Source: an uncultured Prevotellaceae bacterium (GTDB taxonomy: Bacteria > Bacteroidota > Bacteroidia > Bacteroidales > Bacteroidaceae). Taken from it: a stretch of DNA of 41,829 nucleotides. A model generated the notes under the pieces. It searched no databases, was not told the DNA's origin, and saw only the letters and a list, made by a program, of their open reading frames with translations. Shown here piece after piece: positions 1,270 through 2,958 of the stretch (positions are counted from its first letter, which is position 1; every line of letters begins with the position of its first letter). The position numbers and the translations under genes are program-made. The DNA lies in the NCBI GenBank assembly GCA_946415525.1, contig CAMKSZ010000004.1, positions 1 through 41,829 of the forward strand, written 5' to 3'.

Positions 1270-1803
1270 TCAGTCCTCGCTTGAGTCGGCTGTACGCAGG
1301 ATGATACTCGTGGCACCAATCGTAAAAAGTGAGCCGTCCTCGAGCACACGACGCTCACGGTCGCCAAGAATCTCATTGTCTACAAAGGTGCCGGTGTTGC
1401 TCGGTCCGTCGCGAAGCACATATTTCAGCTTGCCGTTCTTGCCTCGCGACACGTTTATCACACAATGCAGCATGTCGACGCTGGGATCGTTGGTCTCAAT
1501 CGGAAGGGTGGTCTTGCTGCCCTTCATGTAGCGGCCAATGGTGTTGTCGCCCATGCGCAGGGGCAGCACTTGCTTGTAATGGAAAACATTCTCGATGACA
1601 AGCAGACTGCCGCAGTTGGCCTCGGTCATCTCCTCCTCAGGGTTCTCCTCTTTCTGCGTGTTGCGCAAATGAGATACCCCCATACGAATACCGAACTGCT
1701 TTCCACAGTTCGGACATTCGAAGACCAATGACTGGCCAGCCTCGTAACGGGTCTCGTCGAAAGTGATGAATTGGTCACATTTCGGACAACGTACTCTCTT
1801 CAT
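1270..1803 (-). CDS. Zinc-ribbon + FHA domain protein
   Basis: N-terminus MKRVRCPKCDQF...FECPNCGKQFG (CxxC...CxxC ribbon). C-terminal FHA-like IGRYMKGSKTTLPI..DPSVDMLHCVINV...DGPSNTGTFVDN. Confidence 0.85.
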   Translation of the reverse strand: MKRVRCPKCDQFITFDETRYEAGQSLVFECPNCGKQFGIRMGVSHLRNTQKEENPEEEMTEANCGSLLVIENVFHYKQVLPLRMGDNTIGRYMKGSKTTLPIETNDPSVDMLHCVINVSRGKNGKLKYVLRDGPSNTGTFVDNEILGDRERRVLEDGSLFTIGATSIILRTADSSED

Positions 1804-1806
1804 CGG

Positions 1807-2922
1807 CTATTTCACTTCCATGATCCATCCGCTGCTCACAACACCGTCGTTTTGAAGTGTCTGCAACTGGGCAATGGCTTCTTCCTTGTCGGCATAGTCG
1901 CCATAGACGACCATATGGTCGTTCTTATACTCGAAGAGAGCGGCCTTGCGGGCTCCTTTCTCGTGGATGGAGGCAAGGAAATTCTGCGCGTTCTCCAATG
2001 GAAGGCTGCAACCCAGTACCACGGTGAAATGCCCGGGAGTGGGAAGCACGGCCTCTGCATTGAGCGACTCAATGTGCTTGGCCAATTCCTCAAAAGCGCC
2101 TACGATACTGCGTGACTCTGGGGTGGCGGCACTTGTTGCAGTGGCAACTTCTTGTGCCGGTGTCTCAGCCGACAGGGTAACGGCAGCCACTTCCTTCACC
2201 TCCTTCTTGGGGGTGATGGTGGTGAGCAGACTGGCCTCGGCGGGCTGATTGTCGACGATGACATCCTGGTTGGGTGACACCGGACGGGCAAAGAGCAGCA
2301 GCGCCACGGCAGCCACGGCGGTCACGGCGAGGTTGCGCAATAAGCTGACTTTTATACTGATGGTTTTTTCCTCACGCTGATGGTCGGAGGGGGATACTTG
2401 TGACATCATTGTTGCAAGACTGGGTTGGAAGGATGGGTTGGGTGTGATGCGACGGCTCTCCAAGGTGATGGTGCCGGGCTTGTCGGTGTGCTTGAGCACT
2501 TCTGCGAGCAAAGGCATCTCGATGCTGCTCAGACCGTAGAGCATGGGGGTGAGCAGCCCCGACTCGTTGGGCTCGAACTCATAACGGCCCTCGTCGTTCG
2601 AACGGAGCGTGCCAAGGTCGGCAAACTCATAACTGCCTGTGTGCTCAATCTGATTCTTCACCGATTCCACCTCGCGCTCCAGCATCGCCACAGCCTCAGG
2701 ATAACTGATGTCATAGGCATCGGCATACGACTGTGCCAACAACGGGTCGCTCATCGTGAGCTGGGGGTTGAAGCCTAAGGTTCGCAATGGGGGTATGAAC
2801 ATGCTGTCGCGGTCGTCGTAGCGGGCTTCCACATGGTGAGCCATAAAACCACCCAGATTGGGCACGATCACGCAGTCATTGTTCAACAAGAGTATTTCAA
2901 TGTGTCTTCCTAATTCTATCAT
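1807..2922 (-). CDS. HU-like (CCDC81-type) N-terminal domain, TM helix, C-terminal SPOR domain protein
   Basis: MIELGRHIEILLLNNDCVIVPNLGGFMAHHVEA resembles bacterial HU-CCDC81 N-termini. TM LLRNLAVTAVAAVALLLFA. C-terminus GHFTVVLGCSLPLENAQNFLASI...VVYGDYADKEEAIAQLQTL is SPOR-like. Confidence 0.85.
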   Translation of the reverse strand: MIELGRHIEILLLNNDCVIVPNLGGFMAHHVEARYDDRDSMFIPPLRTLGFNPQLTMSDPLLAQSYADAYDISYPEAVAMLEREVESVKNQIEHTGSYEFADLGTLRSNDEGRYEFEPNESGLLTPMLYGLSSIEMPLLAEVLKHTDKPGTITLESRRITPNPSFQPSLATMMSQVSPSDHQREEKTISIKVSLLRNLAVTAVAAVALLLFARPVSPNQDVIVDNQPAEASLLTTITPKKEVKEVAAVTLSAETPAQEVATATSAATPESRSIVGAFEELAKHIESLNAEAVLPTPGHFTVVLGCSLPLENAQNFLASIHEKGARKAALFEYKNDHMVVYGDYADKEEAIAQLQTLQNDGVVSSGWIMEVK

Positions 2923-2926
2923 GCTG

Positions 2927-2958
2927 CAAAATTAGTTCTTTTTATCGGGAATCACAAA
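2927..2958 (-). promoter_or_regulatory. Bacteroidetes-type promoter TTTG-N20-TAATTTTG upstream of the HU/SPOR gene
   Basis: Minus strand reads TTTG TGATTCCCGATAAAAAGAAC TAATTTTG CAGC ATG; the -7 box ends 4 nt before the start codon. Confidence 0.65.

Follow-up and report, generated by a model that had tools for sequence, protein, structure and literature searches.

Little has been described of how the Bacteroidota coordinate cell division with chromosome segregation, and the locus considered here raises the question of whether one membrane protein, reaching from the nucleoid side to the wall side of the envelope, could take part in it. The locus lies in a stretch of 41,829 nucleotides from an uncultured Prevotellaceae bacterium (the window, meaning the whole stretch that was analysed) and consists of a gene for a protein with HU-like, transmembrane (TM) and SPOR parts, here called HU-SPOR, which is a single-copy, class-wide candidate for such a role, followed by a gene for a zinc-ribbon protein with an FHA domain. 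It was originally predicted that HU-SPOR could couple the chromosome to division-site peptidoglycan and that the FHA protein, by reading phosphothreonine, would place this coupling under kinase-dependent control. Residue tests narrow this domain-based story to two questions, namely whether the HU pair binds DNA or protein, and whether the FHA domain binds phosphothreonine at all.

Domain layout and transcription of the gene pair

The two genes, their domains and the upstream elements are listed in Table 1; the coordinates of both genes and the gap between them agree exactly with those of the original prediction.

Table 1. Features of the HU-SPOR/FHA locus, given as window positions.
Feature	Position	Strand	Basis
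TTTG, possible -33 element, 20-nt spacer to the -7 element	2955..2958	-	Read from sequence
TAATTTTG, match to the Bacteroidota -7 element TAnnTTTG, 12 nt before ATG	2927..2934	-	
HU-SPOR gene, 371 aa: tandem HU (CCDC81 type)-linker-TM-linker-SPOR	1807..2922	-	Pfam, AlphaFold2 model, Foldseek
HU domain 1 (HU1), residues 1-59, PF18174 HU-CCDC81_bac_1	2746..2922	-	Pfam E 9.2e-29
HU domain 2 (HU2), residues 61-129, PF18175 HU-CCDC81_bac_2	2536..2742	-	Pfam E 1.6e-23
Single TM helix, residues ~194-212	2287..2343	-	Hydropathy peak 2.12; helix 192-211 in model
SPOR domain, residues 296-359, predicted periplasmic	1846..2037	-	Pfam E 3.8e-6; Foldseek
Gap, 3 nt, HU-SPOR stop to FHA start	1804..1806	-	Gene coordinates
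Zinc-ribbon and FHA gene, 177 aa, predicted co-transcribed with HU-SPOR	1270..1803	-	
Four-Cys zinc ribbon, C6, C9, C30 and C33 invariant	1684..1797	-	Alignment
FHA domain, residues 88-163; Arg91, Asp110, Thr137	1315..1542	-	Pfam E 8.6e-10

What had been described as an HU-like N-terminus proved to be two HU domains in tandem, both above the curated cut-offs of the bacterial HU-CCDC81 families (99.6 against 26 bits for HU-CCDC81_bac_1 and 82.8 against 35 bits for HU-CCDC81_bac_2), which places the protein in this group. As in the class-wide homologues analysed with Pfam and hydropathy, the HU pair is followed by a TM helix and a C-terminal SPOR domain. The single TM helix that had been claimed corresponds to one hydropathy peak and to a helix in the model, and the SPOR-like C-terminus is confirmed by the SPOR profile (27.6 bits, cut-off 21) and by Foldseek matches to SPOR structures. 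In the AlphaFold2 model the SPOR domain reaches a pLDDT of ~90 and HU2 of 65-83, HU1 being modelled at low confidence (~32-57). When the whole model was compared with the PDB, the structure prediction that had been proposed as a check returned both folds, since Foldseek retrieved the SPOR domains of CwlC, FtsN, DedD, DamX and RlpA as well as HU proteins, with probabilities up to 1.0 and modest E-values (6.5e-4 and ~0.02). Direct sequence search of the PDB gave no match for HU-SPOR; the sole match there for the FHA protein, to a zinc finger, was discarded as spurious. Because positive charge lies on the N-terminal flank of the TM helix in most homologues, an N-in/C-out topology of HU-SPOR with a single TM helix is supported, rather than the opposite topology. 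The partner likewise turned out much as described: its FHA domain is recognised by profile (39.3 against 20.7 bits) and by fold, the model having a mean pLDDT of 81.6 and matching MDC1 and mycobacterial FHA domains in Foldseek (E from 1.5e-6, probability 1.0), and its zinc ribbon, for which profile matches fall below cut-off, is assigned from the four invariant cysteines. The domain and gene-pair observations are far beyond chance.

The sequence TAnnTTTG is the -7 element of Bacteroidota promoters. It is found 12-13 nt before the HU-SPOR ATG in all 26 of the other orthologs tested, as compared with its occurrence anywhere within 120 nt in 3.7% of trials on shuffled upstream regions, and no copy occurs within 120 nt of the FHA start, either in the window or in the orthologs analysed (0/25). 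Since the motif stands at this distance before HU-SPOR and never before FHA, the two genes are predicted to be transcribed as one bicistronic mRNA that would be leaderless or nearly so.

Distribution of HU-SPOR and of its FHA partner

The HU1 profile was detected in 131 of 148 genomes of the order Bacteroidales and, within a sample of 297 genomes of the phylum, in 58 genomes of the class Bacteroidia; the genomes with a match nearly always hold one strong copy. All ten diverse homologues inspected have the HU-HU-SPOR architecture, the SPOR domain being below threshold in two. Judged from these searches, HU-SPOR represents a known, widely conserved and usually single-copy architecture of the class. 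A role in partitioning has reportedly been proposed for the Bacteroidetes HU-CCDC81 members by Burroughs and colleagues in 2017. As this HU clade has been published under a title that names chromosome partitioning (Burroughs, Kaur, Zhang, Aravind 2017, Cell Cycle 16:1093), the notion of a tether re-derives a proposal already in print and cannot count as new. The window protein resembles other Bacteroidetes HU-CCDC81 proteins in that both profiles score far above cut-off, in the same order, with a TM helix and SPOR domain after them and usually one copy per genome; it differs in the downstream FHA partner and in the more acidic HU pair of the window's family. Literature searches on Bacteroidetes SPOR and HU proteins returned nothing relevant. 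HU-SPOR itself is real and well conserved and belongs to a known family, and its operon partner, specific to the window's family, was not found described.

Of the 106 genomes of the window's family that have both genes, 105 carry FHA immediately downstream of HU-SPOR and on its strand, and one further genome shows the SPOR end followed by FHA at a contig edge. A scan of genome contigs found the same gene order in its 37 Prevotellaceae-type loci. This linkage spans ~20 genera, among which the flanking genes otherwise change. Outside the family, ten Bacteroidales genomes carry a full-length FHA homologue together with HU-SPOR, on different contigs in every case. Conservation of the pair across the Bacteroidales, which had been proposed as a check, thus holds for the window's family but not for the rest of the order, and an order-wide operon was rejected on the same count (adjacency 0/10). 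Most simply, the operon would have formed once near the base of the window's family and been strongly kept. Searches with HU1 and full-length profiles did not find HU-SPOR in 11 FHA-keeping genomes from two genera of that family (g284 and g281), one of which holds a weak, stop-containing match to the SPOR half. Because these genomes retain FHA in the absence of a detectable HU-SPOR, the two proteins do not appear to form an obligate complex, and FHA is, on genome content, not an obligate partner. The new finding is the near-constant pairing, in one bacterial family, of HU-SPOR with an adjacent FHA gene that is predicted to be co-transcribed.

Residues bearing on DNA, glycan and phosphothreonine binding

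For the predicted binding of DNA by the HU domain, the fold was recovered by profiles and Foldseek, and the basic DNA-binding surface and arms, as judged by net charge only, were not. The HU pair of the window protein has a net charge of -14 and a pI of 4.37 (HU2, computed over residues 60-131, contributes -10), whereas for the genome's two ordinary HU proteins the charges are +3 and +2 and the pI is ~9, net charge being a weak proxy in this comparison, as an overall acidic protein can bind DNA through a local patch. Every one of the 32 close orthologs likewise has an acidic pair (net -8 to -19), and among 22 more distant members the charge, at -15 to +2, is in no case clearly basic. The stretch that replaces the basic arm of HU, EARYDDRDSMFIPPLRT in HU1 and NDEGRYEFEPNESG in HU2, is acidic too. 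With an acidic HU pair in a genome whose ordinary HU proteins are basic, the idea of DNA binding is weakened, its probability being lowered but not brought to nothing. Protein binding, on the other hand, has a precedent by analogy in the HU-CCDC81 clade, since a eukaryotic CCDC81 protein has been located within the microtubules of cilia, where, as a microtubule inner protein, it has a protein-contact role (PMC11961760).

Denuded glycan is the ligand of SPOR domains, and every SPOR protein known functions in division or morphogenesis; in a solved SPOR complex the glycan is contacted by Q270 of RlpA, a residue that is highly conserved where the structure of the SPOR domain is known (PMC6895207). 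In an alignment read by eye this position is Val302 in the window protein; Gln is absent there from the 54 family members aligned, which have Val, Ile or another residue, and a further SPOR protein of the same genome (L189) also lacks the glycan-site Gln. Given this family-wide loss, it is uncertain whether the SPOR domain of HU-SPOR itself binds glycan. Compared with FtsN, DedD and DamX of E. coli, which are likewise bitopic, end in a C-terminal SPOR domain and are among the Foldseek matches, HU-SPOR differs in having a tandem HU fold as its cytoplasmic part and Val in place of the conserved Gln. Another family of the class (f5, probably Flavobacteriales) has five loci in which HU-SPOR adjoins dprA and a thioesterase gene, with an EnvC-like protein and a DUF4292 gene encoded close by. 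This EnvC-like protein has a signal peptide, a coiled coil and an M23 domain that, on reading, is devoid of the HxxxD/HxH metal ligands. EnvC activates the septal amidases that make denuded glycan (PMC12440217).

Of the residues that define a canonical phosphothreonine-binding FHA domain, the partner protein keeps the Arg and has lost the Ser and the Asn. The phosphate-contacting Arg91 of the GR motif is invariant (28/28, and all other subfamily members aligned). In place of the pocket Ser, three residues before the conserved His, every window-family partner aligned has Asp (Asp110 in the window protein), and outgroup members have Asp, Glu, Gly or Ala but never Ser. Where canonical domains have the Asn of the NG(T) loop, nearly all have Thr (Thr137, T-G-T), with His in L019 and Val in L172 as exceptions. 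Both Ser and Asn are present in all eight FHA paralogues aligned. These two replacements weaken the predicted reading of phosphothreonine, of which the FHA fold and the Arg stand. In the HU-SPOR partner the phosphate pocket seems to have been converted, and Asp110 may face Arg91. The established phosphothreonine readers MDC1 and mycobacterial FhaA and GarA share with this partner the full FHA fold, the GR motif and the His, and differ in the pocket Ser and Asn and in the N-terminal zinc ribbon seen in the window's family. A zinc-ribbon FHA paralogue of the same genome (G000, contig C35, L045) has the same layout and a core that aligns gap-free across the pocket, but it keeps the Ser (VSRAH) and the Asn, is unlinked to HU-SPOR and adjoins a Ser/Thr kinase and a PP2C phosphatase. 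As for kinase-dependent control, two kinase-family genes exist in the genome, but it is the Ser-bearing paralogue, not the HU-SPOR partner, that adjoins a kinase, and kinase-gated control in its canonical form is unlikely.

Adaptor, tether or passenger

The best-supported reading of these data, which we hold tentatively and at somewhat less than an even chance, is that HU-SPOR serves as an adaptor anchored to the septal wall, its HU-fold head being a docking place for proteins and the non-canonical FHA protein an accessory. HU-SPOR would be an N-in/C-out bitopic adaptor of the inner membrane, concentrated by its periplasmic SPOR domain where peptidoglycan loses its peptides, at the constricting septum, and its cytoplasmic tandem HU pair, instead of acting as a general clamp on DNA, would present a folded acidic surface on which proteins of division or chromosome segregation dock. 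Within the window's family, a small cytoplasmic zinc-ribbon/FHA protein would have joined it as a co-transcribed partner, one that probably binds a protein ligand through its non-canonical pocket (Arg kept, Ser to Asp) and serves as an accessory of the same site; this last step is the least certain one, because FHA also exists without HU-SPOR. The sequence comparisons and models demonstrate the HU-HU-TM-SPOR architecture, its class-wide conservation and the FHA adjacency in the window's family on which the adaptor is built, and it is further favoured by the domain folds, the acidic HU pair, the positive-inside flank, the EnvC-like gene near HU-SPOR in family f5, the promoter pattern and the protein-contact role of eukaryotic CCDC81. 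Against it count the weakness of charge as a proxy, the low pLDDT of HU1, the lost glycan Gln and the genomes with FHA and no HU-SPOR. A bolder, family-wide version, in which the septum-anchored acidic HU head and the co-transcribed FHA with a self-filled (Asp-for-Ser) pocket form a phospho-independent division scaffold unit, seems improbable; if it were true, the HU fold would have been turned in bacteria from binding DNA to docking proteins, a change that CCDC81 also appears to have undergone in eukaryotic cilia.

The nucleoid-to-septum tether, in which the tandem HU pair binds DNA, SPOR binds septal peptidoglycan and one protein bridges both, is less likely than the adaptor without being far-fetched, as the HU fold is clear by profile and Foldseek, tandem HU domains can mimic an HU dimer, the gene is conserved and single-copy in the class, in another family of the class six loci have dprA, a DNA-processing gene, beside HU-SPOR, and the title of the earlier publication names chromosome partitioning. 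It is set back by the acidity of the HU pair in every close ortholog beside the basic ordinary HU proteins of the same genome, by the arm-region sequences and by the microtubule assemblies in which eukaryotic CCDC81 works (PMC11961760). Doubt could also be cast on the wall end, if SPOR here did not read septal denuded glycan and HU-SPOR were a general envelope or stress protein. The glycan-site Gln is replaced in every family member aligned and the SPOR score of the second HU-SPOR copy in the bin falls below cut-off, but the clear SPOR fold in Foldseek and the division or morphogenesis roles of all known SPOR proteins (PMC6895207) make this a distinctly unlikely reading, and the loss of the Gln, shared with L189, may be a Bacteroidota habit.

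The remaining alternatives concern the FHA gene. That its product gates HU-SPOR by reading a Thr which one of the genome's own Ser/Thr kinases has phosphorylated must be considered very improbable. In its favour, the fold is certain, the phosphate-contacting Arg is present in every family member aligned, the genome has two kinase-family genes and the operon is conserved in the window's family. Against it, the pocket Ser gives way to Asp in all window-family partners aligned and to Asp, Glu, Gly or Ala in outgroups, the Asn is almost always Thr, and a kinase and PP2C phosphatase instead adjoin the Ser-bearing paralogue. More credible, if still on the unlikely side, is that FHA is a passenger in the HU-SPOR operon of the window's family, with shared expression only and the two proteins working apart. 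The genes are unlinked in 10/10 of the other Bacteroidales genomes with both, two genera keep FHA without HU-SPOR, and the lack of a second promoter motif before FHA fits a passenger as well; against this, linkage in 105/106 genomes over ~20 genera with changing flanks is more than drift usually keeps, to which it may be replied that selection for co-expression alone could suffice.

A few observations on the surroundings may be added. A part in defence was also considered, but the neighbouring genes gave no hint of one. On contig C35 (L040, L043, L045), the kinase, the PP2C-like phosphatase, the zinc-ribbon FHA paralogue and a second FHA gene form a signalling cluster that also has caspase-like and formylglycine-enzyme-like genes, the assignments beyond kinase and FHA being made by eye. 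At the left edge of the window, a cut gene (1-612, + strand) encodes the C-terminal part of a second HU-membrane protein and converges with the HU-SPOR/FHA operon across a DUF4112 gene. The full gene (L001, 8311-9699, - strand), encoded after ftsY and rimO, has two HU domains (PF00216, E 3.5e-15), a linker that is very acidic, a single TM helix and, at the C-terminus, a LysM-like part. In genome G502, where FHA and HU-SPOR are not linked, HU-SPOR is immediately preceded on its own strand by an HU-TM-LysM-like gene (L173, 649-1800 and 2001-3017). The possibility that the assembly holds only the window's copy was rejected, as the bin has a second pair on contig C1 (L196) whose HU-SPOR and FHA are 53% and 82% identical to those of the window, which is most simply explained by a second species in the bin; the bin thus probably mixes two related species. 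Contig C1 repeats ftsY, rimO, HU-LysM, FHA, HU-SPOR and a GH3 gene, ~47-92% identical to those of the window species, and the GC content of this copy is 51%, against 47% for the window species.
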